Source: Branchiostoma floridae | Taxonomy: Eukaryota; Chordata; Leptocardii; Amphioxiformes; Branchiostomatidae | Assembly (NCBI RefSeq): GCF_000003815.2 | Contig: NC_049980.1 | Span: forward strand, 31,447,470-31,511,469 | Direction of reading: 5' to 3' | Length of the DNA: 64,000 nt | Shown: piece after piece, positions 2,997 to 37,736 of the stretch | Layout: each line of letters starts with the position of its first letter | How positions within the stretch are numbered: the stretch's first letter is position 1 | Notes under the pieces: generated by a model | Database searches by the model: none | Told to the model about the DNA's origin: nothing | The model's input: only the letters and a program-made list of their open reading frames with translations | Position numbers and translations under genes: made by a program

Positions 2997-3096
2997 NNNN
3001 NNNNNNNNNNNNNNNNNNNNNNNNNNNNNNNNNNNNNNNNNNNNNNNNNNNNNNNNNNNNNNNNNNNNNNNNNNNNNNNNNNNNNNNNNNNNNNNN
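2997..3096. other. Assembly gap (100 N)
   Basis: Exactly 100 undetermined bases. The round number suggests a scaffold gap of unknown true size. Continuity across it should not be assumed. Confidence 0.99.
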
Positions 3097-10115: not shown

Positions 10116-13100
10116 CTTCGTACAGATGCAGATCTTCATGCCCGGAACCCCAGCCTCTGCTGTGTACAGGGACAGAGTCTGTAGCTTGTGTGAGTCTGTA
10201 GACAGGGAGGGGCCTAAGGAGTCTGGGATGGAGCCTTTCTTCAGCTTGGTCTGTAGCCAGTTACACAGCTGGGCAGTGGCTGGGGATTCTTCTTCTGTGA
10301 GAAGTAAATAAATGAATAACTTTATTGCAAGATTATGCCCAATGGTAATTGAACAAGAAGCAAAACATATATAGAATTGTATACTTAAGAAAATAACTAA
10401 ATTAACATGAGGGAATGACATTTACATTTTGTACTCGACATGTAATTCTGTTTCTACTTATTTAAACTATTTGAAGGGATTGATGTCTAACAATGACTCT
10501 AAATCACTACAACAACAAAGTATAAGGTTTTCCAATTGAAAATAACATTTGCAGGGCTCGAAATTCATTTTTGGGATTAGGTGCACTGGTGCACCCAGCT
10601 TAAATAATTGGGTGCACCAAAAAATTTTTGGGTGCACCACGTAAATTTAAGTAATAAGCTAATAATAAAACTTAGTTACAAGCTATCAAATTCTTAAACA
10701 GCAGACATTTTTATCAACTTTCTAACACTTAGATGTCAAGAATATGATGTACATGTATACTAAGTATACTTTGATATCCTAACATACATAAACCTAAGAA
10801 AATATTTGGGTGCACCCTGTGCACCCAGAGAAAATAACTGGGTGCACAGCTCCAATTTTGCACCCAGTCATGCACCCAGTATTTCGAGCCCTGACTTGTC
10901 AGGAAGACCGATGCAACAACATTATGCATCATTCAATGTCATACAAACATACAATTTAGCAGATTTCAATGTATCTTTGTGACAATAGTCACAATGCAAA
11001 ATAGACAACTTTGTAACATAAAAGAATGCTTTATTAATAGAAAAGATACTGAAACCTACGAATTTATGCACCTGACTGTAACATGATATTATGAATTTGC
11101 TCAGTCTTTATTGTTTGATAATTTTCATACTTGTTCTGTATTTCTATTTTGAAGTTTGTAGTTAATTGCATCAAAGTTAATATGTATTTTGCTCAGTCAA
11201 TAAAGCTTATTCATGCTAGACTTGTCTATCTTCATCTAAGAAGGGCAAAATGTAACACTTAGGATGAAACACTGCAGGCAAATGATGAGCAGAAATCTGC
11301 ATGACCAACCTAGATCAGGTAAAGACAACACCAGTTTCCAGTAGACATTGGTGTACTGTCTGGCAACTGGTTTGAACAGGTTAGCTCGTGTCTTCGTCAG
11401 CTGTTCACCAACAAGGGCGGCCAGGTCGAGAGGCGCCCACGCCCGCTCTCTCCTAACCTTAGCCTGGAGTCTCCGCATGTCGATAGCGAGGGACGTCACC
11501 TCCCAACTCTTCACCAAACTGGTAGAGAGAACAAAATATCTCCTATAGCATACGCACACTCAAAAATGTATTTTTCCCTAGAGATATTATAGAGAGGACC
11601 ATGTCTACACAAAGAACACTAAGGGAATCCTTGATAGCTTAAAACCATGCTTGTAGTTAGATGTGCAAAGGCTATAGCTACATGTATACAGATACAAATG
11701 TCATGTATTATCAGTTGATAATGGTGACATTGGTCAGATGCAATATAACATGAGTTGGTAGAAAGTGCAAATATGCATTTCCAATATATAACAACTGTAA
11801 AGCAGAATCGTTTCAGCCCCAAGCTTAAAACACTCACTGTGTAAACCTCCTTCCCTCTACTGCAAAATTAAGACTTAGGGAAAATTTACATTTACTACTA
11901 CCTCATAGGATTGGCAACAGGTCTCTTCCTCCTGAAGAAGGCTTGGATTTTCTGCCAGGGGAGTCGCTGTGTGGGGGCGCTGGGGAACTCCTGCATGGAG
12001 CGGCGTAATCGCTTTCTCATGGCATAGCTGGCGCGCCACCTAGGGGAGGGAGAAAGCATTGCATTTAAGGAGACCTGTCAATCTAAAACTAGTAAAAGAA
12101 CTTTAAAAACCTGACAATTTTCATTCATGCTGATGTTATGAACTCTACATTCTATAAAGACTGGTACGATCCTTTTAGCCTTTCTTGATTCATCAAAGGA
12201 ATAACTTTTTTCTGTGTACCTGCACTGGTGCAAGTAAAATGCTAAATCACATGCACCAGACAAATTTTACACATGCCTGCACTACTCTGCTTGAAAAAGG
12301 AAATTTTCATCTAACTGGAAGCTTCTAACTTGTCACCAGTAATAACAAGCAGTACTGGAAACAAAATTCCACATTGACTCAACATGTACCCCAAACCTGG
12401 ACTGGTGCAGGTAGAAATAAGAAATACTAGTACCTGAACAACTCCAATTTCACCCATGCTTACCTGCATAAATCATGCGGGTGGTATTTATATCCCAACA
12501 TGCAGCATGTCCAATGTATTTGTTTTTGATGTATGGCACACACAATAATCTTGTCTCAAGAAGGAAAAATCCCAACCTTTTCCAGAGCCGTGCGGTTTGC
12601 ATCAGCTGTACACACTGCTCCAGCTCAACCAGGTGCTGGTCCCGCAGCTCTTCAGCTGCCCTCACCACCTCCTGACATACATCCCGCACTCCCTCTACTA
12701 CTACCTCCTCCTGCACAGCCCTGCTGATGTCCACTGTACATCTCTCTATGGACTCCTTCTTCAGTTGCAGATGAACCTCCCTGTGGAGAGATTTTAACCA
12801 TTGAAAACCTTTAAAGTCAAAGCTTACAATATGAACCTTTTCTAGCAGGAAAGAGAACTGCACTGCAACATATCTAGCTTACCCAACAGGTACACAAACA
12901 TAAGCGTAGTTATCTTGAGATTTTTTTGTTCTTTCCAGCTGTAAGTTACAGATACCATGCCTTGACATAAAGAGGTCTGGCATTTGAGGAGAGCGACAAC
13001 TCAAGCACGTTTTGAGTAGGGGCTTTTGGAGGTGTGGCTCATAACTTACAGTCCTATCTTACGAAGCTTATACTTAGTTGACAAAATGTTAACACCTTAA

Positions 13101-16100: not shown

Positions 16101-19100
16101 ACTGGTAGTACATGTAGTTTGCACTGCAGCAAGTTTGTATACAAAAACCTCTGGAAATAATTTTCATCCACTAGTAGAGATTGATCTGTCTTTGAATATC
16201 ATTTATATGGATGTCTAACTTTTGTAAACCTATTCACTGACATCCATTGATAGTTTAACATATAAAAAGCCCAACCGATTCCTACCTCCCCGACAGAAAC
16301 CGTCCTCTTGCTCGCGACGACAGCCAGCCGTTTGGCCCGGGGAATACTCTCCCCCTCGATGAAGGTCGTACGGCTGAACCCGACGGCACCGTCCAACACG
16401 GCCAGGCCAAACGCCTCGCTAAAGATGGCAGTCTGAACAACAGAATGGATAAATCTTAGCAATGTAAATTAATCTTAACTTTACATAACCAACCAAGCTG
16501 CACCGTCCAACACAGCCAGGCCAAACGCCTCGCTGAAGATGGCAGTCTGAACAACAGAAAGGGCTACATTGTAAAGAACCTCATGGCCTGTATGTAGCAA
16601 TCTAAGGGATTAGTCACATGGGTGCATTCAAATCTGTACTGGCATTATTTTAGCTCAGGTAAACTTTGAGGCCGACGATTCGGAAGTATTTTTAGTATTC
16701 AGTAGGCTGCCGAACGGTGAGTCAAAGTAAGAACAAAATAACTTCTTCCCCAGAACTTAACCTAGATCCAAAAAAATTGTCAACACACAAAGCATACAGA
16801 CTTTAATATGTTTATTCATGTGACTGATCCCTGAGACTTCATGGAAGAACTTTTAAGGGTAACTTGTGCCTCATTATTTTCAGATTAGCATTTCAAAACT
16901 AGTGATACTCTGTCTAGAAATACATGACATATCTTTTCTTCCCATCCATACTGCTGACCTATGCACACATGTAGGGAGTGAAATGTAATCATTTGACATA
17001 AGACTTAACTGACCTCATCCTCATCTTCAAACCCCATCATGCGCATGTAATCTGACACCGGGAACTGGGTGGTGCGACCAGTGATGGAGTAGGCTCTGTT
17101 CATCACCTTGATGGACTGTGTACGGACCTGGAACAGGTAAAAGTATTTACATCTTAATTGGGCTGTGCTAGTGTTTGAGTTCTGGATGTGTCTATACTTA
17201 AAGGCATCACACAAGCTTCCCAAACCTGCCACTGTGCCACTGTCGACAATTTGAACACCTGAACATTTGAACAATTTGAAAACATAGACTTTGGAATTGG
17301 TGCTCTAACAATTTTTCATTTGAAGAGACCAATTGTTTTAAACTTCTTTCACACTTTTTGCACTGAAATGCATGCTTTCTCAGGTGGGTATGACATAAAA
17401 AGAATACAGCACTGTATTTTAGGTCCCAGCCCCCAAGCAGGTCTGAATTATAGGCAAACTTTGAAAACTTGTGATGCTGCAAGTAACAAAAGAAAGCCTT
17501 TCATGCCCTTAAGTAGTAAAGAGAATATAGGGATATGTTACCTGTGTTAGGTACCTATGCATGATACAGGCAGGTAGGTACGGGGCCGCCTGCAGAAGCT
17601 TGAAGAAGCGGACAAAGTTGTTGTTGTTGAGGGCTGAGAAGACCTGGAGGGCAAACTTCATCTGGGGGGAATTCCGCACCTCGGGACGGAGCTGCTGCAC
17701 CTCTCTGTGGAGAAGACAAAAACATGAGAGGGTCAAAATTACGTGTGGGACAATAAGCACCTCTGGCGATGATTGGCTATCATCTCAATCTCCTTGGTGC
17801 TGATTGGCTATCAATAGTTCATTACAACTAGTCTTGTCCTTGGTGCTGATTGGCCATCATCTCAATACCCTTGGTGCCGATTGGCTATCATTACTTAATT
17901 TCAACCAGTCTTGTCCTGGGTGCTGATTGGCTATCATCTCAATACCCTTGGTGCTGATTGGCTATCATTAGTTCATTTCAGCCAGTCTTAGTGCTGATTG
18001 GCTGTCTTTTTTTTCATGAATATGTTCACCTCAAACAGCCCTGTCCTTGGTGCTGATTGGCTGTCCTCTCAATAAATCAGTTCACCTCAAACAGCCCTGT
18101 CCTTGGTGCTGATTGGCTGTCCTCTCAATAAATCAGTTCACCTCAAACAGCCCTGTCCTTGGTGCTGATTGGCTGTCCTCTCAATAAATTAGTTCATCTC
18201 AAACAGTCCTGTCCTTGGTGCTGATTGGCTGTCATCTCGATGAATCAGTTCATCTCAAACAGCCTGTCCTTGGTGCTGATTGGCTGTCATCTCAATGAAT
18301 CAGTTCATCTCAGACAACCCTGTACTTAGTGCTGATTGGCTGCCATCTCAATGAATCAGTTCATCTTTCTTTTTTAATTTTTAAGTGCACCTGAATCTTT
18401 AGGATAAGCACACCTGTCCAGTGCAATATTCCCAAAAAATGAAATCTGAGCTCTGATATGTATTGATACCTCTACCAAACACTATAGATAAAGAGAAAAA
18501 AAGGCCACTAATTACCTGAGGATGTCTCCCTGGTTCAGGTTGAGGAGCAAATCGTAGGCATGGGATTCCTGTTCGTTAGAGCAGAACCTCAACTATTGAC
18601 TATTCTACACTAGTTAACAAGAAACAAGACCACTTCTCACCTGAGGATGTCTTCCTGGTTGAGGTTGAGGAGTAGCTTGTAGGCGCGGAATTCCCCCTCG
18701 TTATTACAGAACCTCCCCTATTGACTATTCTACACTGGTTTACAAGAAACAAGGCCACTCCTCACCTGAGGATGTCTCCCTGGTTCAAGTTCAGAAGTAG
18801 CTCGTAGGCGCGGAATTCCCCCTCGTTATTACAGAACCTCCCCTCCACAGTCAGGTCGTGGTAGAACTGCTTCAGGCTCTGCAGACACTTGGTCAGGTTC
18901 TCGTTGTTGATCTTCGGGTCGAAGACCTGGGCAACAGGGCAGAATTCAAACTCATCATTATAACTGCCATAACTCAGACCCAGCTTTTCAGGTTTTTATA
19001 GATAAATAGGCAATGTCAGACTGAGTACGAAATTCTAGCATATGCTGCACAAGCCAGAACCCTGATTTAAAGAAAATTCAAAGTATTGAATGTATCACAT

Positions 19101-22100
19101 TGATGTTTCTTGACCATTATGGCTGCACAAAATTAGATGTTATACAACAGGGATGACTGGCTAGTGCATTCGAGTGTAATGGGCCACCATGGTATATTTT
19201 GCGTCCACGAAGTTAAATGAGGACCACCTAATTTTCTACCAACCTAATGCTACTTTTTAATTGCTAGTGTTGACTTACAAATATTAATTGATTTGGATTA
19301 TCTATTTCAAATCAATAACATGTTACAGATTTAATCTGGATGTCCAAAATTATACTGGAGCCTATTATAAATAGATAGATAACAGATCGTCATGGGCTCC
19401 TGACACAGTTGGTGTGCGCAGTGGATGTGGAAACTAGTGATTTAGTTTGTTTAGGTACAGGTACAGGTGCAGGTACAGGTACAGGTATGGGCACAGGTAC
19501 AGGTGCAGGTACAGGTACACACACAAGTACAGCCTTACCGTCATGGGCTCCTGACACAGTTGGTGGGCACAGTGGATGTGGAAACGGGCACACTTTTCTG
19601 TCAGGTCCACAGCTGTGTGGTCAGTCAAGAGCTGCTGGGTGATGTCCTGGGATGGGGGAGAGAACAAAGTTAGGGAAGACAACAGACCAACACACAGACA
19701 GCCAAAACCAATACATTAACTTCACTCAATGCAATGGCCTAGGATTAGAGAGTGCATTTGGAAGTTTAAACCCAGGCTGGAGGCTCACACTAAAGTCTGA
19801 AAAATGGAGCATATCATTTTCTCTGCTTTCGAGTATGAGAGTTGAACACCCTCCACTACCAGTAGACTTACTAAGTCAACTGTTATGGCCTATAGATGAG
19901 GGACAGAGATGGACAATGCTCCTATATACCAAAAAGGTGTGAGATGGATTTGTCAATGAAGTTTAGAAATCCAGGTAAATAAGGTATGCCAAATAGCATT
20001 TACTCAAACAACTAGATATAATTTTGGAAACAGTCAGATGTTTCAAATAGCATCCACTACTAGTGTCTTTCGTTAGTGACACTGAGGAGATCTGCTACAG
20101 TAGAAGAGCAGGTTTAATACCCAGACTACAGGAAGGGTTATCATTGCATACCTTTCTGATGCCCCTTGTCCTGTTCCACACAAAGTCGTACCAGTCCCCC
20201 CAATTCCCGTCCCTCCCCAGGTCCAGGATGTTGTTCACTAGGTAGTTCATGGTCAGTGTCAGCACATGGGGAGGTCGGAGTTCGTGTGGCAGGGGCTCTT
20301 CCTTGTCGGCTGACGAGCGAGCGTATTCCTTCACGGCCTTCGTGTGGTCGATCCTGTTTAGGTTGATGTTAATGTTTATTAGTGATACAACACCTGTATA
20401 CTAATCTACCTGGAGTCCTTTGCAAATTATGCAAACATAAAACATATGTAATTTATATTTACTACTATCTATAATGATAGTTTATTGATTATAGTTCCAA
20501 TCTCCAATACATGACAGCGCTGTAGCGCGCTGAATTGCGTATTCCAGCTATTTTCAGGGTTCACTTGGAAATCAGTTGAAAAACAACCGAAGATCTGACC
20601 CTTATAATAAATTTATGAAAATACATACAACCCAATCTTACATCCCTACCCTACATACATAAGCATGAAAGCTAGCAAAAGAACCATATAAATGAAGCTT
20701 AGTCTAGAGGCCAGAGGTACTATACCACATGTATTTATTTACCTGTTGTCGTCATCGGGGAGAGTCTCGAAGAGGGAGAGCCTGTTCTGGAACTCTCGCT
20801 CGTATCGCTCCTTCTCCGGACACATGTCCTGGCAGGTACCCACAAACGCCTTCGCTGTGGCCAGGTCTGTCTGTTTCTTGGATCCTATAAAATAGGAAAG
20901 GAAAGAAATGTCATGTCAAAAATTTGGTTACTTCAACAGTGCTATGTGCTATAACCAGATGCAGAGCATGCAGCTTGTATTTCAATCTCTGTATTATGCA
21001 AGTACAATGTATTCCATGAAATGTAATCATCTTATTTCTCTAGTTGCGCAGACTCAAGTTGACCATGACTCTTTTCATCTATCTCTCTATGCTCCATAGG
21101 TCTAGGTACATGTATGTCTTCAAACGTACAGCATACATCCTCACACAGTTGATAAAGAAACATACAACTCACAGAAAATTATACTACCGTAATTGTTAAC
21201 ACTAGTTTTCAGCAGAATACTTCTTGTACCAACAGACCAGGAGGCCACCTTACCCTGCCTGATGATGCGATCTCTCTGTTCCAGAATCTGAAACTTCTCG
21301 TAGGCATTCTTCCCAGCCATCCCTCTCAGCTTCCCCATGCTGGTGATCCCCATGGCTGGCTTCTTCTCAGCATCCCTTCTCTCACTGCTGGCTGAGGAGG
21401 AGGACCTGCCAGCCTCTGGTTTAGCAGCTGCCCCTTGTGCAGACTTCCTACCACCTGCACTGAGTCCTGATGTGCCTGCAACTGGCTCTGCTCTTGATGC
21501 TGCAGTGCCTGTATCTGAAAGTACAGTGTCATTACATAAAAAAGGTGACCTTCCCATACTGGTACCATGCATTGTAAGTAATTGAAGACCCGGGTTGAAA
21601 ATACGCATCATACAGCAGGAAAGTTGATTGACTGACAAATCTACATACTCTAAATGAAATTTTGGGGAATACTACTCCAGATATTCTTTCCATTGTTGTC
21701 AATTTTTAACTTAAGGATCAGTAACTGTTGATATTCCAAAGTTGATGAGCCCGGTTCAAATTGTGATAGGGTAGATTTTTAGGCAAAAATAAAACGATTA
21801 ACTCTCAGGCAATTCTAAGATTCAGGAAAATTCTGGCAACCACAATCACAGGGAACATGCATACTGTACATGTACAAGCTTATACAACACTGCTGTCTGT
21901 GGACTCTGCCCCACCTGCTGCAGCCTTCCCCTTGGGAGAAGTCTTGCCAGATCCCCAAAAGATCGTGATTGGTCGAGTGTTCTTCTGCAGCAGCCGACCC
22001 TTTTTCTTGGCCTCCGAGGCTGATTTCTACAAAATGACAAATTACAATGAAGACTTGTTGACTAATGTTAATTACACTTCTATCATACTCAGACATTGTC

Positions 22101-25100
22101 TCTGCGAGTAGGTTCTGGAAAAACTACTATTATGACATACACAGACTACAGACTACGAGATACAGTGTAGAGCCTCTCTTTTAGTTTTCAAGATTATTGG
22201 TTTTTTTTTAAATGTACACATTGTTCATCTTTATGCAGCACAGTGCCTGAGAATAAACAAACGAATTGAAGAAACTAAGCTTTATCTAACCAACACTGGA
22301 AAAATAGCTGGGAGTACTCATGCCCTTAGGAAAGGCACTTTACACAACTTTCCTCACTTCACTCAGGTGAAAATGAGTGCCTAGCTTCGGCTAGGGCCCT
22401 CCCTCAAATAGGACAATAAATGGAGGTCCTGTGTTTGACAAGAGCCACACTTTGAGCACGTTAAAGAACCCGTCCTTCCCGGTGTGAGTGGATCAAACCT
22501 TACACTAAAGTTACAGTCTGTATATAGACTACAGAATCTTCAGCAAGTTGGAGTTGGCAGCCTCAAAATCAAACAGGGAGAAAGAAGAAGAGTATGAACT
22601 ATGATGAACTTACATGATCGGCAAAGGAGATGAGAGCAGTGTTTTTGTCGCGGTTCGGGTTGACTCTGACCACCTTTCCAAACTTGGAAAAGTGCCTTCT
22701 GAGGAATTCCTTGTCGTTGCACATTTTAGGGACGTCCGAGCAGCGTAGGGTTGTCCGTGTGCTGACCTCCTCTTTTGTCAGGAACCGCCTGGTGCCTGGA
22801 AAAAGAAATTCAACGTTCAAAATAACGACAAAGCTGAAATCTAAAACAAGTGCTGTTCTGACCAGCTGTGGTTTCAGTTTACAGCATATAGATCTATGTA
22901 CTACTAAGTTAGCTGACTGTATTTGTATGGTGGTGTATTTCAATTGTACCAGCTACAGAGCTAAAGATACTGTAAAACTGTCACAAGTGATGACATCTAC
23001 ATAAGAACTACCTAGTCAATCAATTGAATGGGACCACTTTTTCCCATTGACACTAACATTATAAGAATCCTGTCCACATACATGTAGACCAGATTTTATC
23101 GATCCCAAGTACTCTTCTTGAGCAGATACCGGAACTGATCCCCATGTTTACCTGACTGTGAGTCGGAGGATGACAGCCGGGGCCGTGCCAGGGGTTTGTA
23201 GGGTTCCAGTTCAGTATCACTGGGCCGTGCAAGGGGTTTATACGGTTCCAGTTCAGTGTCATCTTCTGCCGCCCCCACTGCCGCTGCGGCCTTCTGAGGA
23301 CCTACATTAGATACGGCAATTAACAATAAACTTGAAGAGGTTTGTATGGAGTGACACAGTGTAAACTGTGGCATTGTTAGTGATAATCAAAATTTGTTTT
23401 TTCTTATTCATGGTTTTCAAAGTAACCTTTAACAGCAAAATCATGACAACACAATTATGTATTTCGTATATTACTATTATACTGCAGAATCATCTCAACC
23501 GCATACGATACACAAAAAAATTCAGCGAAGATCACATAATTATACATTATTACAAGTCTATTTGTGTTGAAAGCTACATTTGCTATGATTATTTTCTTCC
23601 TTTTTTTCTAGATATACACATATATACTGGATGCTAATGACTTACTTTTTGGCTGTCCTGATGTGCTTGGCTCCACATTTATCTTTCTGCTGACTTTCTT
23701 GGTAGCATCGTCACCAGCGTCAGCTCGCGATCGCTTCAAAATCGAGCTCCTGTCGATAACTGGCCTCCTGCTAGGGCTGCCCTCCCTCCCTTCGCCGGCA
23801 AGAACCGCTTCTTTACTCTGGTTTGTCGTGTCTTGTCCCTTTCCTCCAAATACGGCTGCAGCTCCTGTTTTCGTTTCCTCTGGTTTGGCAAAGACGGAAC
23901 TCTGTTCCGTTTGGTCCTGTCTCCCGAATATTGCCACCCCTGCAGAAGGGAAGTTTGATGAAGTAGAAGAGGACGGAAATCCGGACGGACCGCCGGACAT
24001 TTGTCCAAAAGTCTTGCTTCCAAAAGAAGGGGTGTCGCCCCCGAACGGACTGCCTCCACCGAAGCTGGGAGCACCAGCATCCTTATCACTGCCTGTGGTG
24101 AAGGAAAAGGAAGGAGCGGAGGCTACACCACTGGCGCTAAAGGCTGGCTTGGCCCCAAACCCACCTGTTGAGACAGTCTCTGTAGCACTAAAACTGGCTT
24201 TGGTGTCCGTGGTGGTAAATTTGAAGCCACCGGTGGTGCTTGTTGATGCTCCAAACACAGCTTGCCCGCCGAATCCGGCGCCAAGCGCCTTAGTCGTCTG
24301 CTGGACGCCAAACACACCGAAGCCTTGGGTCCCTGCAGTGGCAAAAGCAGTGCTGCTCCCGAGGGCCGCAGGTCCCTGGCTTGAAGGAGGAAGGCCGGAG
24401 GATGGATCAGTGACATCGTCGCTCTTGGCTGTTGGTGGAGCAAAGATGTTGACAGACGGGGAACTACCGGTGCCACTGAAGATGGTGGTCGGCTGCTGTG
24501 CAAATGGGTTAGACCTCGTCCCTGCTGGAATGGTAAGAAGGGGGGTGGTTACTTATACTTCCATTGTATAGTCACTAGTCTGGTATCTACATGCATGCTA
24601 CAGTAAGTGAGTAACACAATGTCATGTCATATTTGGACAATATCAAGATCATCACTTTTTATAATTATACTCTTTTGCTGAAGGGAAAATGTACATCTTT
24701 TAATTTCATGAGAAGAAATCTCTCTATTCCGTAATAACACCACTAGCTTACTACTTCCCACTTGGAGTTATACATGTAAGAATAGAATAAGAGTGGTACA
24801 TGTGTTCCTCGTTGTCCTACCTTCCAGACTGACTCTTCTCTTGGCCCCAGTACCAGGAGCTCTGTCACTGGGCCACCGTTTCCTGGGACCCCTCTCACGC
24901 CCTCCTCTCTCCGGGCCTCCGCCTCTCCCCACGCCTCGTGGCGTTCTGTCAAACCCCTGGGACAGCCTCCGTAAAGCCTCCTTTTTCTGGAAAATGTCAG
25001 CGAGAGTTAACGTTGAATGTATCAATGATGGAGACGTCAGTTTGGCGGATGAACCGCTCCGAACCCAGGAAAATATGTTGGAGAAAAATTGTATAAATAA

Positions 25101-25458
25101 TGATGATTATAATTTTTCATCCAGTCTCCTCTTTTAAAGTCTTTGTGAAAAGAAGCAAAAAAAAAAACAGGGCAATTGAGTGTGCAGGTATTAGAGTTAA
25201 TTCCTTGAATATACATGTTATATATACTGGTCAAACACGACATACGTACCATGTATACCATTCGTCACAAATCTGGTCATACTCATATATTTTTGTGACA
25301 CTGACACTAAGCCCCCCTCCCCATTTTTTGTTCTGCGGCCGCCTCTGCTGAAAGTGCGTGCATGCTATTTAAAAGATTGCAAATACAAAGTCCCTTGTAC
25401 ACCACACACGCACACAAGAACTTACCTTCTTCTGAGCGAATTTACCGGAGGAACTCAT
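10116..25458 (-). CDS. MCM3AP: MCM3AP/GANP: TREX-2 mRNA-export scaffold, 22 exons, C-terminus missing
   Basis: Germinal-centre-associated nuclear protein, scaffold of TREX-2 in nuclear mRNA export. Exons from the start: 25426-25458, 24821-24986, 23646-24521, 23152-23301, 22614-22795, 21915-22026, 21254-21514, 20743-20884, 20152-20353, 19539-19646, 18766-18926, 17542-17704, 17014-17127, 16286-16432, 15783-15906, 14783-14937, 13930-14138, 13164-13289, 12577-12780, 11902-12039, 11310-11518, 10116-10294. All junctions are GT-AG with matching phases, giving 1387 codons (human about 1980). Domains in order: basic N-terminus ([11 protein letters not shown]), FG-rich nucleoporin-like exon 3, RRM-like exon 5 ([12 protein letters not shown]...ALISFADH), Sac3/GANP core in exons 8-14 ([37 protein letters not shown]), Pro-rich exon 16, helical exons 17-20, then the GANP-like [10 protein letters not shown]. 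Exon 22 matches the NWLxxK...TLSL...CIKV part of GANP and ends at a donor; no later exon is visible. The exon 3 acceptor could also be 3 nt upstream. Confidence 0.93.
10552..10893. mobile_element. Foldback MITE with CAGGGCTCGAAAT ends
   Basis: The ends are inverted: CAGGGCTCGAAAT on the left and ATTTCGAGCCCTG on the right. Subterminal GGTGCACCCA repeats also occur in both orientations. The CAGGG terminus is typical of hAT-type elements, but I could not find a matching 8 bp target duplication. Related fragments with CTGCAC(T)GGTGCA motifs lie at 9988-10075 and 12215-12500. The element sits in the last MCM3AP intron. Confidence 0.7.
13765..13890 (-). repeat. Partial copy of the 3' half of MCM3AP exon 17
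   Basis: On the minus strand this reads [18 protein letters not shown], then a [17 protein letters not shown] equivalent, nearly identical to the 3' half of exon 17 at 13930-14138. It includes the terminal AGGGAAAG before a GT donor. It lacks the exon 5' half and an obvious acceptor, so it is probably a non-functional tandem copy. Confidence 0.8.
14238..14455 (-). repeat. Two partial copies of the 5' half of MCM3AP exon 17
   Basis: Copies at about 14238-14289 and 14385-14451 reproduce the exon 17 start ([26 protein letters not shown]), each after its own AG acceptor on the minus strand (CTTTTCCAG, CCTTTTGCAG). The first copy has an internal deletion. Neither has a clear donor after the coding part. 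Confidence 0.8.
15356..15754. mobile_element. PIF/Harbinger-type MITE, copy 1
   Basis: Terminal inverted repeats GGCCACACCAATTTAATTTG and AAATTAAATTGGTGTGGCC extend inward through the GGTTCTCGGATTT / AAATCAGAGAACC blocks. The element is flanked by TTA on both sides, the TWA target duplication typical of PIF/Harbinger. It lies 28 bp from the donor of MCM3AP exon 15. A second family member is at 54792-55158. Confidence 0.85.
16498..16551 (-). repeat. Partial copy of MCM3AP exon 14 5' edge
   Basis: On the minus strand the segment encodes [16 protein letters not shown] after the same TTCTGTTGTTCAG acceptor as exon 14 (16286-16432), about 119 bp upstream in transcription. It lacks the rest of the exon and any donor. 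Confidence 0.85.
17766..18370. repeat. 56-bp minisatellite carrying 13 inverted CCAAT (NF-Y-type) motifs
   Basis: Tandem units of about 56 bp, each holding GTGCTGATTGGCTGTC or a close variant; I count 13 GATTGG cores. Read on the minus strand, the core is AGCCAATCAGC, which fits the NF-Y consensus. The distal units (from about 18010) are regular, with CTCAATAAATCAGTTCACCTCAAA linkers. The proximal units are more diverged. The array is in the MCM3AP intron between exons 11 and 12. Confidence 0.9.
18514..18765 (-). repeat. Two tandem partial copies of MCM3AP exon 11
   Basis: Segments at about 18518-18585 and 18645-18715 copy the 3' half of exon 11 ([25 protein letters not shown]) with its GT donor, plus some following intron sequence (TTGACTATTCTACAC). 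The period is about 125-130 bp. The copy nearer the exon is nearly intact in frame; the far copy carries coding changes. An AATAG precedes the coding block in the nearer copy and could serve as an acceptor. Confidence 0.85.
19391..19530. repeat. Exon 10 fragment plus (GTACAG)n microsatellite
   Basis: 19391-19435 repeats the 3' edge of MCM3AP exon 10 (CATGGGCTCCTGACACAGTTGGTG at 19541), separated from it by a GGTACAGGTGCAG microsatellite at about 19450-19520. The fragment contains no complete exon. Confidence 0.8.
22318..22490 (+). mobile_element. SINE fragment (3' body)
   Basis: The segment contains TGCCCTTAGGAAAGGCACTTTACAC followed by TTCCTCACTTCACTCAGGTGAAAATG and ends near GAGCCACACTTTGAGCACGTTAAAGAACCC. 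The same block follows a tRNA-like head in the copies at 57315 and 62545. The tRNA-derived head is not recognisable here. Confidence 0.65.
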
Positions 25459-25874
25459 CTTAAATTTATCTCCTAAGGAGCTGTTGATGCTCGAGCTCAC
25501 GCACCGCCAGAATCAAACTGTGCTTTGCACTGAAAAAACTAGCACTCTATTTGTGTGATACAAAATTACTCACAATGTGTTCGATAAACGTCATATTTAA
25601 ATGTAGTTATCCTAATTGTGGTACACATGTGCCCATTGATATTTTAGTAAACTCTATTAAAATTATTTTTTTTCTTGAAAGGCTTAGCTTTTACGTTTTC
25701 ACGTCTCTCTGACGTCATAAATGCTGCTCTTACAAACGTGATGCTATTTTCTGTCCAAAGCATCAAAGATGGCGGCAATCGAAACAAAAATTGTGAACTG
25801 AACGAAAGTTTGACCAAATTCCTTGAAATAATACGTTTTCGTCGTATCATACAGGCTTATACAGAACTAAAAAG
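25459..25874. promoter_or_regulatory. Divergent MCM3AP/NUP42 promoter
   Basis: Only 416 bp separate the two start codons. A perfect CRE palindrome TGACGTCA is at 25710-25717, and a YY1-type AAGATGGCGGC at 25766-25776 points toward NUP42. There is no TATA box that I would trust. The ATG inside the YY1 motif opens a 10-codon upstream ORF (25769-25801) that closes before the NUP42 start. Transcription start sites are not visible from sequence alone. Confidence 0.7.
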
Positions 25875-28800
25875 ATGGTTATCTGTAGATTTTATCAACA
25901 GGGCAATTGTAAGTTCGGGAGCAGGTGTTTTAACGAGCATCCTCGTGGGCAAGGTAGGTTTCGCTATCACGGAAATGTGGGGAGGCCGGAGGGGGGTAAT
26001 CTCCAAGCAGATCCTACGGTAGCATAAGATAGTATCAAAAGCTGCCAGAGGAGTGAAGCCGGCTTAGGAGTGTGTTTTGCTACCGGGGATCTGCCTCCAC
26101 TGAAACAGGGAGGAGCATTTCTATTCAACAATGGTGTTGCTGCCCCTCCCTGTTGTCATGTGCTAATGATTTTACGAGCGACTTGCACTGGGACAAAGTC
26201 ATTGACCAGCACACGTTCCAGTTGGAAGTTAGCACCAAACAGGAAGGAGGGCAATTAGCACCTACACTGCAAGCAGAGTTTGAATGGGAAACAATTGGAT
26301 GTTAATAACCTTTGTTCTAGCCGACTGGGGGCAGATTCTACATGGCAAATGGACACCTCTTGGCTGACTAAACTTCTTGGCCAGTTTGGTACTATCTTAT
26401 GCCATTGTAGGATCTGCTTGGAGATTAGGAGGGGGGCAAAATATAAAGAGCGAGGCTATTGACACACCCAGTGTGTCAATAGCCTAACAGGCTATTGACA
26501 CACTGAGTGTGTCGATAGCCTGTTTAGGCTATTGGCACACTGAGTGTGTCGATAGCCTGTTAGGCTATTGACACACCCAGTGATAGAAACCACTAAAATG
26601 AGGAAATCTTACGATTATATTTGACAATCAACACTCTGAAAAATACAAATGGCATCCTGTGTCCATTATCAACCCAAAATACGATCTTTTTCACGTGTTT
26701 ACGGCACAATTTTAAACATCGGAATCTGCTATCATATAGGGTGCTAGTTTTACTGTCACCGCATGTGATCTGTGATCATGGCAGCCATGTTGGATCGGTT
26801 AGGACACGTTTTCAGCTGTGTTTACCGACGAATTCCTGCCGTATTGGAGAATTTGCGGCCTCGAAACTTATATCACCTAAGGAGCGAAGTTATAGTTGTT
26901 GTTTTACCTCCCTTATTTTTAATGTGAAAGAAATATTCTTCGGAGTCGCTGCCGATAGCGCCGGAACCACACGGCCGAAAATTATGACATGTTTTGTGGT
27001 CAGTGTTATTTTTGGTTTATATTGTTAACAGAAACTTTAAAAGTTGTTTATATATAAAATATTCTTATATCAAAGGGATGTTTAAAAAGGGACAAGAAAA
27101 ATTGAAAAAAAAAAATTAAAAAAACTCCGGCGCGGACTCGAACCGGGTCGGAGCTGGTATCATGAATTCCTGGGTCAACGCTCTATCCACTACGCTACGT
27201 CATACATACACGATGAAGGCATTATTAGGTATCCAGATGTAGGGCATAACTTGAATACGTCCGTTCATTCCAACATTCAAAGATTCCAATGTCTAATCTT
27301 CCGAACAATGTCTAATCAACTATTGCTTGTGTAAAATATTGCCGGAAAGGCATGTTACAAGCTCTGATTGGCTGACTGGCATCTCGGTGTGTCAATAGCC
27401 TGTTTGGCTATTGGCACACTGAGTGTGTCAATAGCCACAGCGAAATATAAATGTGAGTAGAGAAGAGGAAAGCAGAGTACAGTAAAGTATAATACATCAT
27501 TTTTGCTCGGACGATTCTTTCCACCCAACCCACAGCTCTACTCCAACCCGCCAAAACCAGCAAAACAAGAACATAAACAGACCGCTACGTATACTAAATG
27601 TCAACTTTCAATCAATTCGAGGAAAAGTGGCTGAACTTGACCATCTTATCCAGAGCCTTAGACCAGATATAATCCTTGGCACAGAAACGTGGCTGGAGAC
27701 ACCGGAAATCAGCTCCAGTGAGATCTTCCCTCCTGGCTACTCCAAGGTCTACAGGAAAGACAGGAACAAGTACGGTGGGGGAGTCCTTGTAGCCGTGTCA
27801 GACCTCCTGGAAGCTACAATGGAAACCAGCCTTGACAGGGACTGTGAGATTGTGTGGGCCAAGGTGAAGCTTAGAGGGAAAAGGGACTTGCTGATTGGCA
27901 GTTACTACCGCCCACATGAAGGACTTGAGGACAGTCTGAAAGAGATGGCGGAGTCAACTAGGTTGGCTTGCCAATCCAGTAATGCCATTGTTGTCCTTGG
28001 TGGCGACTTCAACCTTCCTGACTTTGACTGGGGGGAGAAAGTTCTGAAGCCAGGATCGTCTTACCCAAATATCCATCGGCTTTTCATGGATATAATCAGT
28101 GACCTTGGAATGGAACAGATAGTTGAGAAACCCACCAGAGGAGAAAACACTCTGGATATAATAGTGACAAATCACCCTTCTTTGTTCCCTCGTATTGAAA
28201 TTGTACCTGGTCTGTCAGACCATGACATTCCTTATGCAGAACTCCAAATATCAAACGCTCGTGTCCTCCAGAAAGAACGCCAGGTTCTTTGTTTCAGTAA
28301 AGCTGACTGGGCAGGTCTACGGCAGGCAACGCAAGAATTAACTGACTCAATCCTGTCCACTCATGCTGACAAACCGGATGTCGAGGCCGTGTGGTCAGAC
28401 CTGAAGATTGGTCTACAGGAAAGAGTTCGGGAGTTCATCCCATGCAAGAAGATTCGTGCTAGGAGGAGTCCAGCATGGATAACCCACAAAATCTTGAAAC
28501 TTATAAGAAGAAGGGATAGAATCCATAAGAAGTATAAAAAGACCGGAAGACAAGACCTACTTCAAACATTCAAGTCTCTCAAGCGTCAGGTCCAACAGCA
28601 GCTGAGACAGCAGTACTGGAGACACGTACAGGACCTTATCACTGAGAACTGCTCCGATCAGCCCAAACTAACCAAGAAGTTCTGGTCTTTCATCAAAACC
28701 AAGAGAAATGAGAACTCAGGCGTATCACCACTGAAAGAAGCAGGGAAGCTTGTAACAGATGATAAAGAGAGGGCCGAGATCTTAAACCGCCAATTCCAGT

Positions 28801-31800
28801 CAGCTTTCAGTGCCAGGGTTGACCTCACTGAACAGGAATTCAAGATAAGAACTCAGATGCCTCCGCTAAATCCAGAACAACCTGTTATGGATGACGTCAT
28901 CATCACGACTGCTGGTGTAGAGAAGCTCCTCAGAAATCTCGACCCCAAAAAGGCCAGTGGACCGGACAAGATCAGCCCTCGTGTCCTGAGAGAGGTAGCT
29001 ACAGAAATAGCACCTTCGCTAGCCTTTCTGTACCAGGCTTCCCTTGACAACGGGATCGTCCCGGATGACTGGAAGTGTGCTCACGTATGTCCAGTGTTCA
29101 AAAAGGGGGAGCGTTACAAAGCAGAGAACTATAGACCGATATCTTTAACCAGCATTCCATGTAAGCTTATGGAACATATCCTTGTAAGTAACATCATGAC
29201 CTACTGCGAACAGTATCAGATCCTTTGTACACAACAACATGGATTCCGGAAAGGCCGCTCATGCGAGACCCAACTCTTGGGTCTAGTTGATGAGGTCTCA
29301 GCAACACTTGAAAAAGGTCACCAAGAAGACCTACTTGTCTTAGACTTTTCTAAGGCATTTGACAAAGTTAGTCACAGTCTCCTGGTGCACAAATTGAGGC
29401 ATTACGGCATCGATGGTAAGGTCAACACCTGGATTCGAGAGTTCTTGCTGAATAGGAAGCAGGCCGTTATCGTAAATGGCTCAAGGTCGGAGTATGTTCC
29501 AGTGGAATCAGGAGTCCCACAGGGCTCCGTCTTAGGTCCCTCCTTGTTCCTCATTTTCATAAATGACCTGCTAAACGACTTGTCCTCATCTCCAAGGCTG
29601 TTTGCAGATGACACAGCCTGTCACAAAACCATCAAGGTTGCCCATGACCAAGTTTGCCTTCAGAAAGACCTCGACAAGCTTGCAGAGTGGGAGAAGCGAT
29701 GGCAGATGTCATTCCACCCAAAAAAATGCTCAACCGTCCATATGACTCGCAGTAGGAAGACACAGGAAGCAGAGTACCAACTGCATGGCCATATTCTCCA
29801 AAAAGAGACCCAAGTGAAATACCTTGGTTTGACACTCACCAAAGACCTAAAGTGGGGCCCACACATCATGAACATCTCAAACAAAGCAAACAAAACACTA
29901 GGATTCATCCGCCGCAACATCAAAGTCAACTGCAAAGCCATCAAGGAGGCAGCCTATAAAGCTCTAGTAAGATCTACCCTTGAATACGGCAGTGTAGTAT
30001 GGGACCCTCATACTGCCAAGGACATCAACACTGTTGAGAAAATACAACGCAGAGCGGCAAGATGGGTATGTCATCGTTTCCGTCAGTCCTCAAGTGTTGG
30101 TGACATGCTACAAGAACTCTCATGGGACACTCTGCAGACTCGCCGTAAACGTGCAAGACTCTGTACCTTCTACAAGTTCCATCACGGAATGGTGACCATC
30201 AACTCTAAGAACCTTCCTACACTTAGCCAACCCAAACGTCAGACAAGACAGTCTCACCCTTTCTACTACAATATTCCTCTAGGCAGAACTCAGTACAGAC
30301 AGATGTCATTCTTTCCACGAACTGTGTCCGAGTGGAACTTGCTTCCTGCAGAGATGGTGACTGCCCCATCCTTGGAATCCTTCAGGGATAAGGTGGCAAA
30401 GCTACACTAACAGTTATAGTAGACCCCCAAGGCATAACATTACTTGAAACTACAACAGAAACCTCCTGTACCAGCACCTCCTTTAAGTGTGGCAGAAACA
30501 TCAACAAGATGATGGTGGCCACCTGAACATTAAGAAGATAAGATCATATGACATTGAAATTGAGTAGACTGCTAGACTGTATTTGCTTTACATTGAAATT
30601 TAGACTAAGGCGCCAATGACGCTCCTTGTACTGTGTTGTAGAATGCACTGTTTATGTATGGGGGGGGGGGGCGGTCTTCTTCTTTCATTTTGAGGCTACC
30701 AACTTCAACTTGATGAAGACTTTTGTAGCCTTTGGAAGACTTGTACACAAATTCTTGTCTGGGCCATTGTCTTGATTTTGATAACATGTCCCGATAAACT
30801 TTGTTTCCTTGAAGGCTACCAGCAGCAGTCTTATGGTGGAGGCTATGGGGGCGGGGGACAACGGGGAGGTTTGTTTGTTTACAATCTCCATTTCCAAAAG
30901 TTATAATGTACAATACACATTTACTAGTCTTCCTGGAGTATAAAAAAGATTCAAGCATTTCTTATATCACTTGTTAGCCGTAGAATTTCAGATGCCAGCT
31001 TTGTAGTGTACTAGTAGTACTTGTAGGTTTACGATTACAGTGAGTGTAGGTTGTACACTCAAAATTTGTTCTATGTACCAAAATTTCTATTACGTAACAT
31101 TTTTGCGTAAGGTGCACCAGTCCACCTTTTTCCTGAAAATGATGTTTGAACATTACGATACTGTTACAACTTAACACATGACTCTACCTTAATTGACATT
31201 GAAATTACAGCTAACTAAGGCTACATAACTGCTTAGGTTACGGTGGTGGTGGTGGTCAGCGAGGTGGTTACGGAGGTGGTGGTCAGCGCGGCAGGGGTGG
31301 ACAGAGGGGCGGTTACGGCGAGGGCAGCTATGGAGATGACTATGACTCCAGAGGGGGTGGCTTTGGTGGTTACAGTGGTGGCAGGAGGGATGACTACAGC
31401 TCCAGTGGAGGTGGTGGTGGTGGGTTTGGTGGAGGGCAAAGGGGAGGATTTGGAGGTATGTGGGCTTAACAGTGGACACTCCTGTTCTTCTAAGACATAG
31501 ATCCATAGGAATACAGTCAAAATGCAATATGTATCTACAAAAATGACCATGGCTGATTAAAGAGAAATGATAATAACTAGAAGTTACTGAAAAGAGTGAA
31601 GAAAAGAAAAAGCAGTTTAGTTTGGATGATGTTTGACTTGAAACTGACTTCTTTGGATATTCTTCTGCATTAAAAGTGTTCCTTTTTTCCAGATTGTGCC
31701 AGTGTGCTGTAAATCCAGCTGTAATGCTTATATGAAGGATATTTGTAGCAAGTCTATTTGTTTTTTACAGGGGGAGGTTCATTTGGTCGGCAGAAAGGGT

Positions 31801-34800
31801 TTGGAGGGCAGCAGAGCCAACAGACTTTTGGATTCAAGAGTCAAAACAAGTTTGATACGTTATCCACCAAGGATGGCGACCCAACACCTGAACAAATCAT
31901 GTAAGTTATATCAATGTGTAAGTCATAATTAAATCCATCAAAGTTGATTTAAACCTGTTACTTTTTGACTGTTGCTTGTACTTGAGTTTTCTTTGTATAC
32001 TAGAGAACTAGACAGCACTTTACAATTTTCATTGAACAATAGGATGGTAGTTATGCTGCTTGATTCATGTACAGGTGCATGTGCAGGTAAATGCCTTTTG
32101 AAGTTACCACATTTGCTGGTGGAGTAAAAGTCATACATGGACTAGTAGATCAAGAAGCTTGCAAGGTTTCTCTCAGATTTGAAGGTGGAAAATTCTTTGA
32201 TTTCACTAATTAGCATTTTGACTTTTTGTAACTTTCCAGAGAAACTATTGTGAAGGACATGGAAGTCTGGGATGCATCGAAGATGTGGCCTTTCTCCTGT
32301 TACTGCTACACCAAGGACCTGAAAAGTGTACTGGGTACGTTCTATGAATTATTTTGGTACCAATTTATGCATCTCAAATTCAAGATAGTCAAGTCAACCA
32401 CAATAATAAGTTCTTTTGACTAAGGGCCTGGTCATATGTGTAGTGCAATTGTTGTAAAATTTCAAATTGAGGACACTCTTTGGATAGCCATTTATGTGTC
32501 CTGAAAAATTCAGCTGTCTTGCTGTGAACAACATTGCTGTAGATCATTTTTGGTGGTTTGTTGTGTCACAGCCTTCTGAAAAATCTTCCGGCATTAGAGC
32601 TTTACGACCTCACCACAAGTCCATAATGTATAGTTTTGTAACTAAGTTGTCTTTCTTCAAATGCTATTTATCAACTCAATTTTTATCCCACACCGTACCC
32701 CCTACATAACATCACAACTCTTTACACCATCCCCAGGGTTTGAAGATATCTCCTTTGAAGAAGTTCGATGGGAGGCTTACCAAGCTCAGGCTGCTGGAAC
32801 GTTCAACAACTATGTATGTGGGGTCATTTGAGAAAAATTTCATTTTGTAATTTTTATTAATTGATCGCAAACTGTATCTGTCTTTGTTCGGCCCGTTTGC
32901 CCTTTGACCCGGACACGTGAGAGTGACTTCACTCAAAGTTTGCTGGGCAGGCGGGTCGCACGGATCTTCTCTTTCTCCCTTTTCACCCTCCACCACCCCT
33001 TTCTCCGCCAAATGTTATTGAAGGTTAAGAATTTTATTATAGTTGTTGAAGTAGTATTAGTGTTGTGTTTTTCTCCGAAAAAGTTTTACTTGATTAAACT
33101 TTTTCCTTTTTTCTGCCAAACTGTGTCTTTGTTTGAGTTTGTCCGATAATTGACTTTTTCTTAAAATGCTACCACTGAGAAATAAGTACGGAAATTATTT
33201 TCTTTAGTAAAGGTAAACATGTGTTTGTTGTCAACCCATCTACTTGGAAGTAAGTTAGCTTCTGTAATATCTATTTCTTAAATCCCCCCCCCCTCACATG
33301 TTGGTGGGAATATACAAATTTTTTCAACATTTTAAAAGCTACACAGATAAATGCCTTTGTTTTACATGGACTCTCAAGCAAGTGGGGTTTTGTACCTGAT
33401 ATTTAGGCATACTTTGCATACATTAGAAGTGCCAGATTTTATTTGATGATTCTTGAACAGTGTCCAGTTTTGAATATCACTCGAAATACATTCCACAATC
33501 TTCTGTCAGCCAATTAAAGAGTTGCCTAAATGTTTTCTTTAGGTAAATGACAGCTGATTAGAAGCCACATCCACAAAATTTTAGCAGAGCCTACCCAAGG
33601 CATATTGCATGGGCCTTGGACAGCACTCTTCATACAATTAGAAGTACCAGGTTTGGTTGGATAGTGATAAAATATGGATGTCAGTGTACCAGCTTTGAAT
33701 ATACTTGAAATACATTCCACAGGTGGAAGGAATGACACAGATGATGAAGAAGTACAAGAGCAAGAAAGACGACTACAGGAGACCAGATATCAATGTCAAG
33801 GCCCAAATTGTAAGTTGTCCTTTTTAGATGTTTGTGTCATGGTCTATTTTCAAGATGTACCAGAAGCCCCATAATCACAAGTGTCAGACCTGTATCTTTA
33901 ATGATTCCAATTGAAAGTGACACACTCCATATTTCTACCTAGATTTTACATCAATATGAAAGCAGTTAAATAAAGGTTTCTCCTTTTTACACAGTTCTAC
34001 AGTAGTTGTACTTAGGAGGAGGCTGAAGTCCTTTGTGTATGACAGTACATATCTCTTTTGGTCATATATGGTTGTTTTAATGTCAGAACTCCATAGAATT
34101 TTTTTTTTTTTCAAATTAATTTTGTTAAATTTTTCCAGATTGCAGAACTACAAGGCAGCAGCAGCCAGTCAGTGTTTGGAGGAAGCCAACAAGGCTTTGG
34201 AGGTTTTTCAGCACCCAGGTATTAATCAATATCATCCAAAATCTGGCTTTCATTTTGTTTTTATTACTCTATTGATAGATGATGGTAAGTACTTTGCACT
34301 ACTTCTTATGCCTTGTTCTTTTTATCCTCAGCCAAGTGAGTGGTGGAAGTAGTGGTTTCTTTGGAGGCAGCAGTCAGACTCAAGGTAGGACCATTTTGTT
34401 CATCAACATATCAGGGTATACTGAAAGAGCTTTATTTTTGTGCATACAGGTTCTTTAAAGGGTATGGTCGAATCATTTGGAGAATTATGATGCAGTATAA
34501 TGACATCCCAGATAATAACACTCCTAATTGTTCTGTTTCAGGAGGATTTGGATCATCCGCTAACATGGCTACTTCAGGGTTTGGACAAGGCTCGGCGCCC
34601 AGCACAGGGTTTGGGAGCAGTTCCTTTGGAAGTGCCCCGTCTGCAACAGCCAGCCCCTTTGGAAGCACACCCTCTGGGACAGCAGCTGGCTTCGGTGCAT
34701 CATCGTCAGCTGGAACCTTTGGGTCTGCTGCATCTAACACTCCCGGTGTAGGATTATTCGGACAGCCCAGTCAAACCTCTACCGGTGGCTTTGGGTTTGG

Positions 34801-35122
34801 CACTGCAGGAAGTCAGGCTGGCGTGTTTGGAGGTTCCAGCGCCGCCACACAGAACACAGGCTTTGGTGGGACAACACCGAGTGGTGGGTTCGGAGCACAG
34901 GCCGGTGCAGGTTTTGGCGGGAGTACCGCTGCAGCAAGTGTGGGGTTCGGTGGTGCAACAAACGCACCAGCAGCCACAACAGGACAGACTCCTGCAGGGG
35001 CAGGGGATGATAGGTACACTGCTACAGACAAACTCACATCAGAGGAACTGGAACAATTCAAAGCAGCAACTTTCACAGTAGGGAGGGTTCCAACAAGACC
35101 ACCTCCGAGGGAGTTTTGCTAA
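25875..35122 (+). CDS. NUP42: NUP42 (NUPL2): CCCH zinc-finger FG nucleoporin, GLE1-binding
   Basis: Peripheral nucleoporin of the cytoplasmic filaments that works with GLE1 and DDX19 in mRNA release. Coding exons: 25875-25953, 30815-30868, 31237-31455, 31771-31900, 32240-32334, 32737-32813, 33723-33809, 34139-34218, 34332-34384, 34542-35122. Phases match throughout, giving 484 residues (human 423). Exon 1 encodes MVICRFYQQGNCKFGSRC followed by FNEH, a C-x7-C-x5-C-x3-H zinc finger aligned with the human N-terminus. Exons 2-3 add a Gly/Arg/Tyr-rich RGG-like region. Exons 4-6 carry the conserved IVKDMEVWDASKMWPFSCY and GFEDISFEEVRWEAY block. Exons 8-10 hold FG repeats. The C-terminus DKLTSEELEQFKAATFTVG, then RVPTRPPP, matches the GLE1-binding motif. 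Intron 1 is 4.9 kb and filled with transposons. Confidence 0.95.
26454..27436. mobile_element. Possible foldback element bounded by perfect palindromes
   Basis: 26454-26584 holds about four head-to-tail copies of a palindrome with arms GGCTATTGACACAC and GTGTGTCAATAGCC. 27387-27436 holds another copy and a half. The two blocks bracket about 800 bp that includes a tRNA-like SINE, and I read them as ends of one nonautonomous element. The boundaries and target duplication are not established. Confidence 0.55.
27127..27203 (-). mobile_element. tRNA-derived SINE head
   Basis: On the minus strand an A-box-like TAGCGTAGTGGATAGAGCG and a B-box GGTTCGAGTCC stand at tRNA spacing, followed by an A/T-rich stretch. 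The acceptor stem and anticodon arm do not pair as a functional tRNA, so I call it a SINE head rather than a tRNA gene. Confidence 0.65.
27440..30615 (+). mobile_element. LINE (Jockey/CR1-like) inserted in NUP42 intron 1, sense orientation
   Basis: The element includes a long endonuclease/reverse transcriptase frame (27585-30410). A 3' tail of about 200 bp holds two copies of ACATTGAAATT(G/T)AG-like sequence near 30553-30605. There is no ORF1, so the 5' end may be truncated or its boundary lies within the palindrome-rich region upstream. The 3' end lies about 200 bp before NUP42 exon 2. Confidence 0.75.
27627..30410 (+). CDS. LINE ORF2: AP-endonuclease + reverse transcriptase, uninterrupted
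   Basis: The frame encodes 927 residues from the first ATG and stays open upstream to at least 27585 (LRILNVNFQSIRGKV). The N-terminal third is an APE-type endonuclease: GTETWLE, then VLGGDFNLPDFDW and GLSDHDIPY, so the Glu, Asp/Asn and SDH residues are present. The central reverse transcriptase has YRPISLTSIPCKLME, LDFSKAFDKVSH, GVPQGSVLGPSLF and FADD. The C-terminus is the usual conserved helical tail (AARWVCHRF...SWDTLQTRRKRAR). No stop or frameshift interrupts it, so the copy looks young. Exact clade (Jockey, CR1 or Rex1-like) needs a phylogeny. It is a transposon gene, not part of NUP42. Confidence 0.93.
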   Translation: MAELDHLIQSLRPDIILGTETWLETPEISSSEIFPPGYSKVYRKDRNKYGGGVLVAVSDLLEATMETSLDRDCEIVWAKVKLRGKRDLLIGSYYRPHEGLEDSLKEMAESTRLACQSSNAIVVLGGDFNLPDFDWGEKVLKPGSSYPNIHRLFMDIISDLGMEQIVEKPTRGENTLDIIVTNHPSLFPRIEIVPGLSDHDIPYAELQISNARVLQKERQVLCFSKADWAGLRQATQELTDSILSTHADKPDVEAVWSDLKIGLQERVREFIPCKKIRARRSPAWITHKILKLIRRRDRIHKKYKKTGRQDLLQTFKSLKRQVQQQLRQQYWRHVQDLITENCSDQPKLTKKFWSFIKTKRNENSGVSPLKEAGKLVTDDKERAEILNRQFQSAFSARVDLTEQEFKIRTQMPPLNPEQPVMDDVIITTAGVEKLLRNLDPKKASGPDKISPRVLREVATEIAPSLAFLYQASLDNGIVPDDWKCAHVCPVFKKGERYKAENYRPISLTSIPCKLMEHILVSNIMTYCEQYQILCTQQHGFRKGRSCETQLLGLVDEVSATLEKGHQEDLLVLDFSKAFDKVSHSLLVHKLRHYGIDGKVNTWIREFLLNRKQAVIVNGSRSEYVPVESGVPQGSVLGPSLFLIFINDLLNDLSSSPRLFADDTACHKTIKVAHDQVCLQKDLDKLAEWEKRWQMSFHPKKCSTVHMTRSRKTQEAEYQLHGHILQKETQVKYLGLTLTKDLKWGPHIMNISNKANKTLGFIRRNIKVNCKAIKEAAYKALVRSTLEYGSVVWDPHTAKDINTVEKIQRRAARWVCHRFRQSSSVGDMLQELSWDTLQTRRKRARLCTFYKFHHGMVTINSKNLPTLSQPKRQTRQSHPFYYNIPLGRTQYRQMSFFPRTVSEWNLLPAEMVTAPSLESFRDKVAKLH

Positions 35123-35181
35123 AACAGTCAACAAAAGAAAAGGACTATCTTGTTGCCTAACCATTGTTGTATGTTTTATAG

Positions 35182-35507
35182 CGGGTACCTGGTGCAGGAA
35201 TATTCAGAAAAACCCAGTCAAATACATACCAGTGGCTTTGGGTGCAGTCTTTGGTCTAACAGCACCGAGTGGTTGGTTCGGAGTGCAGACCGGTACAGGT
35301 TTTGGCGGGAGTTCTGCTACAGCTGGAGGATTAGGTGGTGCAACAAATGCAGCAGCAGCCACAACAGGACAGACTCCTGCAGGGGCAGGGGATGATAGGT
35401 ACACTGCTACAGACAAACTCACATCAGAGGAACTGGAACAATTCAAAGCAGCAACTTTCACAGTGGGGAGGGTTCCAACAAGACCACCACCGAGGGAGTT
35501 TTGCTAA
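35182..35507 (+). CDS. NUP42: Duplicate (alternative) last exon of NUP42
   Basis: The real last exon (34542-35122) has a shortened tandem copy 385 bp downstream. An AG at 35180-35181 after a T-rich tract allows splicing from the phase-1 donor of exon 9. The frame is then open to the stop at 35505-35507. The copy has fewer FG repeats but keeps an essentially identical GLE1-binding tail (DKLTSEELEQFKAATFTVG...). About 165 nt at the 3' end, and the first bases of the 3' UTR, are nearly identical, suggesting recent duplication or gene conversion. Whether it is spliced in, or simply lies in the 3' UTR, cannot be decided here. Confidence 0.65.
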
Positions 35508-35606
35508 AAAATGTCAACTAAAGAAAAGGACTACATTTTTATCTAGCTGCTATTGGTCAATATTGAATGTACAAATGTTGTATACCTTATCATGTATACC
35601 ATCCTA

Positions 35607-37493: not shown

Positions 37494-37736
37494 GTTTTAC
37501 TGTTTCTGAATCCAAAACAACCAGCTATGTACCACCACAGAAGGGAGGGAGGGGGGCGTGAAACAAGTACCGAGCGTATAGCCCTCGTTCCTGTGTCACT
37601 TCTACTACGTTTTAGGCATTCAAATTATGATCTAACTGCACGCATGACCAATTATCACAAGTTGTACAATCCCTCTTGTCCGTAATTGACCAGCAAAATC
37701 TTCCTTGCCTGGAACTTTCGATTTTTTGGACAGGGC

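Follow-up and report, generated by a model that had tools for sequence, protein, structure and literature searches.

Head-to-head gene pairs with a shared promoter are a well-known feature of lancelet genomes. According to the relevant excerpts of the amphioxus survey, 3,950 of 15,884 neighbouring genes (25%) of Branchiostoma lanceolatum lie in bidirectional promoters, which are commonest among ubiquitous promoters and enriched for housekeeping functions, and stem vertebrates lost 54.5% of the 372 bidirectional pairs that are putatively ancestral (Marletaz et al., 2018; PMC6292497). The pair described here, GANP/MCM3AP and NUP42, lies in a 64,000-nucleotide stretch of the Branchiostoma floridae genome (C2:31447470-31511469, where C2 is a contig of the assembly; "the window" in the following, on which all coordinates are counted). 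It resembles the published pairs, as the excerpts present them, in consisting of head-to-head coding genes of housekeeping type at short spacing, and differs in that both products belong to mRNA export. A shared promoter has also been predicted in amphioxus for AmphiCHIC-AmphiSYCP1; in the part of the report that deals with it a retrogene co-opted the promoter of its neighbour, whereas GANP and NUP42 are both multi-exon genes (PMC5803294). The human GANP/MCM3AP locus concerns the same gene, and there, in the sections on its promoters, a second, internal promoter yields the short MCM3AP product, whereas the lancelet spacer would be the promoter of full-length GANP (PMC3121959).

A literature search found no publication on the GANP-NUP42 pair (the supplements of PMC6292497, a possible place of listing, lay outside the search), and no paper in it brought together NUP42 and MCM3AP or amphioxus and MCM3AP; NUPL2 and MCM3AP co-occur in human gene lists, one of them for nuclear transport, in the excerpt concerned (PMC3975142). 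We regard the pair as a newly noticed example of the lancelet head-to-head type, and the DNA between its start codons, with a probability of roughly 80%, as a bidirectional promoter of the ordinary housekeeping type, on which about one lancelet gene in four relies.

Arrangement and identity of the two genes

GANP/MCM3AP, whose ATG is at 25458 on the minus strand, and NUP42, with its ATG at 25875 on the plus strand, stand head to head, their start codons separated by exactly 416 bp, and the spacer between them (25459..25874, no strand assigned, 35% GC) is the candidate bidirectional promoter. The first-pass annotation of this DNA had proposed precisely this geometry, and the head-to-head arrangement in the lancelet genome is hereby confirmed, with exact coordinates. 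The searches covered the whole assembly of 513,431,437 bases in 431 contigs, in which the spacer together with both first exons (528 bp) has a single place, at 100% identity. Geometry and single-copy status are direct observations, as are the domain matches by which the two genes are identified.

By its domains the minus-strand gene is the GANP/MCM3AP orthologue. Three exons, given like the next two features by the limits of their open reading frames (ORFs), match Pfam SAC3_GANP on the minus strand, at 20098..20400 (E 2.4e-27), 19437..19715 (E 2.1e-9) and 17512..17784 (E 7.7e-17), and among SAC3 proteins the domain is nearest to that of GANP, as the first of these exons finds human GANP in the PDB at E 4.4e-27 and SAC3D1 at E 1.3e-6. 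The N-terminal part carries FG repeats and an RRM-like domain (22602..22952, minus; RRM_1, E 1.1e-4, above its cut-off), and one ORF, the putative C-terminal region (11239..11559, minus), resembles MCM3AP_GANP at E 1.4e-4 and 20.7 bits, under the 25-bit cut-off. The gene would begin with a coding exon of 33 nt (25426..25458, minus; first in-frame ATG, donor AAG/GTAAGT), followed by exon 2 with a basic region (24821..24986, minus, 166 nt; acceptor TTTTCCAG, donor GTAGG) and the FG-repeat exon 3 (23646..24524, minus, 879 nt). Splicing of these three via AG acceptors and GT donors yields one uninterrupted frame, which is 359 codons long and contains 11 FG.

Since it codes for only 11 residues, exon 1 was checked closely. 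The ORF of exon 2 has no upstream ATG, so that the gene needs an exon upstream of it. The word AGGTAAGT occurs four times in the window, counting both strands, and the exon-1 copy alone has a minus-strand ATG whose open frame reaches it in no more than 150 nt. An in-frame stop is present upstream of the ATG at 25458, and none of the six minus-strand ATGs of the spacer, the nearest at 25594, is in frame with GANP. Together with the lack of an ATG upstream in exon 2 this led us to reject an alternative start, and the sequence argues for 25458 as a credible GANP start.

The plus-strand gene starting at 25875, which the first-pass annotation had likewise named NUP42, is identified as such by the three features expected of it. 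Exon 1 (25875..25953, plus; donor CAAG/GTAGGT) encodes an N-terminal CCCH zinc finger (Pfam zf-CCCH_4, E 1.7e-8), and the terminal exon (34542..35122, plus) contains 15 FG repeats and a C-terminal Gle1-binding motif, for which all three PDB matches at E <=10 (6b4j, 6b4f and 7tbl, E 2e-7) are NUP42/nucleoporin-like 2. The claim that both genes carry FG repeats therefore stands, the counts being 11 FG for the first three exons of GANP and 15 for the last exon of NUP42. The middle exons (ETIVKDMEVW..., FEDISFEEVRW..., VEGMTQMMKKYK...; 32239..33812, plus, limits approximate) presumably belong to NUP42 as well, judged by their likeness to the human protein. Confusion with paralogues was considered and rejected, because a search of the genome with either NUP42 exon 1 or the GANP SAC3 exon gives a single strong match and, besides it, a single weak one: a CCCH-like sequence on C13 (50% identical, E 2e-4) in the former case, and a sequence on C3 that contains a stop (48% identical, E 5.5e-4) in the latter.

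Sequence motifs of the spacer

The spacer contains the two motifs that had been annotated in it, a perfect, palindromic cAMP response element (CRE; TGACGTCA, 25710-25717, no strand assigned) and a YY1-type motif (AAGATGGCGGC, 25766-25776, plus) oriented with NUP42. Their positions are read directly from the assembly, and so is the enrichment of the YY1 word across the genome, where AAGATGGCGGC has 2,658 copies (1,343 + 1,315) against 64 (41 + 23) of the reversed word, an approximately 40-fold excess. Because of this excess, and since at genome-wide density only 0.0021 copies are expected in a 416-bp spacer, the presence of the YY1 word is meaningful and strongly non-random. As a genome-wide element it points to housekeeping and not to export. 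The CRE is only weakly non-random, as the window holds four copies and the flanks a further 13 over 99.9 kb (spacer expectation 0.042, P ~0.04), and was rejected as strong evidence because it is too frequent in both.

The YY1 word lies 98 bp from the ATG of NUP42 and 307 bp from that of GANP; for the CRE these distances are 157 and 251 bp. Given this asymmetric position and the orientation of the YY1 word in the NUP42 direction, the two motifs resemble a core promoter of NUP42 and not a central shared element. Is this a recurrent arrangement? A CRE followed by the YY1 word at 33-63 bp is found at 21 places genome-wide, the GANP-NUP42 locus included, and the reversed pattern at none; the opposite order, YY1 word before CRE, occurs at 11 places, and about 8.5 are expected from independence. 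When obvious repeat copies are collapsed by eye, 18 places (P 0.003) and nine places (P 0.48) remain, respectively. Of the first 30 loci with the YY1 word, which all lie on C1 and one of which has 278 undetermined bases, eight have a CRE within 400 bp, and two of these eight overlap mutually. At best, then, CRE and YY1 word form a mildly recurrent, directional promoter arrangement. For human YY1 regions a small but significant enrichment of CREB sites is reported in the excerpt on co-occurring motifs (PMC3491394), and YY1 motifs were analysed around ubiquitous amphioxus promoters, as the corresponding part of the survey indicates (PMC6292497).

The YY1 word itself contains an ATG (25769), distinct from the start codon of NUP42, which opens a ten-codon ORF (MAAIETKIVN, 25769-25801). 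Its frame is not that of NUP42, and it is a candidate upstream ORF.

Proposed promoter model and its alternatives

It is likely that GANP and NUP42 share a promoter. In the model that we infer, including its start sites and their distances, the binding of factors, the open chromatin and the co-expression, the spacer would be a nucleosome-free stretch bearing two opposed core promoters. The CRE, a site of the CREB/ATF type, and the YY1 word would constitute the core promoter of NUP42, whose transcription might start near the YY1 word, most likely at about 25740-25770, giving a leader of about 100-135 nt. The start of GANP may lie near the opposite edge of the spacer, most simply within 25459-25593, because this part is devoid of minus-strand ATGs and the leader would have no upstream ATG. 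The two starts would then be about 150-310 bp apart, which is compatible with the nucleosome-spaced start distances of amphioxus in the excerpted account (PMC6292497), and both genes would be active wherever the shared open chromatin is present. The export function common to the two products is most likely incidental.

Several points weigh against the spacer being an ordinary housekeeping bidirectional promoter of this kind. The enrichment of the CRE-YY1 arrangement is modest and fragile: under a stricter collapse of places with the common end GATCC-AAGATGGCGGC 15 are left (P 0.03), several of the matches have sequence in common and resemble repeat copies, the gap range was chosen around the GANP-NUP42 locus itself, and the CRE density behind the expectation comes from 164 kb that include this locus. 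On the GANP side none of the few words scanned in the spacer is present, save a CRE half-site at 25589. If transcription starts upstream of the YY1 word, the upstream ORF would be part of the NUP42 leader and could reduce translation. In human promoters, moreover, YY1 sites nearer the transcription start are linked to activation and those over the translation start to repression, in the excerpt that treats site position (PMC3491394). Finally, the published frequencies of bidirectional promoters are those of B. lanceolatum and not of the genome in which the window lies.

The alternative that survives best, though still unlikely, is a functional pairing, in which an ancestral bidirectional promoter balances GANP at the nuclear loading end and NUP42 at the cytoplasmic release end of mRNA export, was kept in lancelets and was split in vertebrates after genome duplication. 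Among 1,975 pairs only 0.007 within-class pairs are expected for a preset class of 30 genes and 0.08 for one of 100, which speaks for this reading. The category was, however, picked after the pair had been seen, and since very many classes exist, some pairs of this sort are to be expected, and that one pair in about 2,000 should match in function is unsurprising. The genetic suppressors of the mRNA condensation that nup42-delta yeast shows in heat shock include SAC3, according to the part of a preprint that lists them (PMC12918808), so that the relative dose of GANP and NUP42 can matter; this genetic link supplies a concrete dose hypothesis. Against a functional pairing stands the generic nature of the spacer motifs.

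The genomic neighbourhoods give no support for an old linkage either. In human, MCM3AP is on chromosome 21 with YBEY as its head-to-head partner, and NUP42 on chromosome 7, and hyccin, PACT/pericentrin and RsfS/MALSU1 are presumably neighbours of one or the other. In the lancelet assembly hyccin finds a match on C15 and PACT/pericentrin a match of its type on C10, neither on C2, and the search for RsfS/MALSU1 gave no match, which leaves the old linkage unsupported, albeit not conclusively. Since gene order within amphioxus chromosomes is extensively rearranged and vertebrate chromosomes are of mixed ancestry, as described in the relevant sections of Simakov et al. (PMC7269912), this evidence is weak either way. 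The same sections describe chromosome BFL2 as alternating CLGJ and CLGC blocks (PMC7269912); C2 might correspond to BFL2. The flanking 100 kb, screened for named neighbours, hold an unnamed tandem gene family (left) and zinc-finger arrays (right), which are useless for synteny. The separation of the two genes in human needs no special cause, because such pairs are common and over half of the putatively ancestral ones were lost; the lancelet lineage kept many putatively ancestral pairs that vertebrates lost. In its fullest form, an old chordate pair whose one promoter ties the entry end of mRNA export to its exit end and keeps GANP and NUP42 proportionate, retained in lancelets and parted by reciprocal loss once the genome had been duplicated in vertebrates, the idea appears quite improbable.

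Very improbable is mere adjacency, i.e., two independent promoters with neither elements nor regulation in common. The position of both CRE and YY1 word on the NUP42 side would suit it, but 416 bp between start codons leave little space for independent open regions, and divergent pairs as close as this usually have one accessible region in common. That two unlinked genes were brought together by misassembly, the objection raised in the first-pass annotation, has a negligible probability: nothing was found in its favour, the 528-bp join lies inside a 35.1-Mb contig, and the only undetermined bases of the window are 100 within 2997-3096. The single genomic place of the join led us to reject both misassembly and a duplicate copy of the locus. 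Unless conservation or expression indicates otherwise, the GANP-NUP42 pair is best taken as an ordinary bidirectional housekeeping arrangement. As a clean single-copy case the locus lends itself to asking whether divergent pairing ever follows shared function.

Surroundings of the pair and the duplicated end of NUP42

Between exon 1 of NUP42 and the next recognized exons lies a non-LTR (long terminal repeat) retrotransposon (27486-30410) with an open frame of 974 codons for endonuclease and reverse transcriptase, and inverted units that conform to GGCTATTGACACAC ... GTGTGTCAATAGCC recur after exon 1, at 26440-26600 and 27385-27440. Beyond the 3' end of GANP, at 5600-9762 and continuing into the left flank, the unnamed family forms a tandem array, its members having a proline/glutamine-rich start and a glycine-rich helix-like stretch; three pieces of it from the window gave no Pfam match. 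The zinc-finger arrays to the right consist of C2H2 ORFs within 50 kb of the window, recognized by eye from their translations. An ORF on the minus strand (36669-37496), convergent with NUP42, matches an SNase-type domain weakly and below cut-off (E 0.0088) and may correspond to C3orf33. RNA genes were found in the window neither by ARAGORN, run with the bacterial code, nor by Rfam at gathering scores.

The terminal coding segment of NUP42 is followed by a tandem second copy (35245..35509, plus) with its own Gle1-binding motif and stop. In the two copies (34857-35124 and 35245-35509) the last 42 codons, comprising Gle1-binding motif and stop, differ at two of 126 bases, both differences being silent, while the likeness of the adjoining sequence is 84% upstream and 79% on the 3' side. 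The second copy also gives a Pfam holin match below cut-off (E 7e-4), which was taken as chance. An acceptor-like TTTTATAG ending at 35181 opens a frame to the second stop. The duplicate may be a constrained alternative last exon, or else the outcome of local gene conversion.

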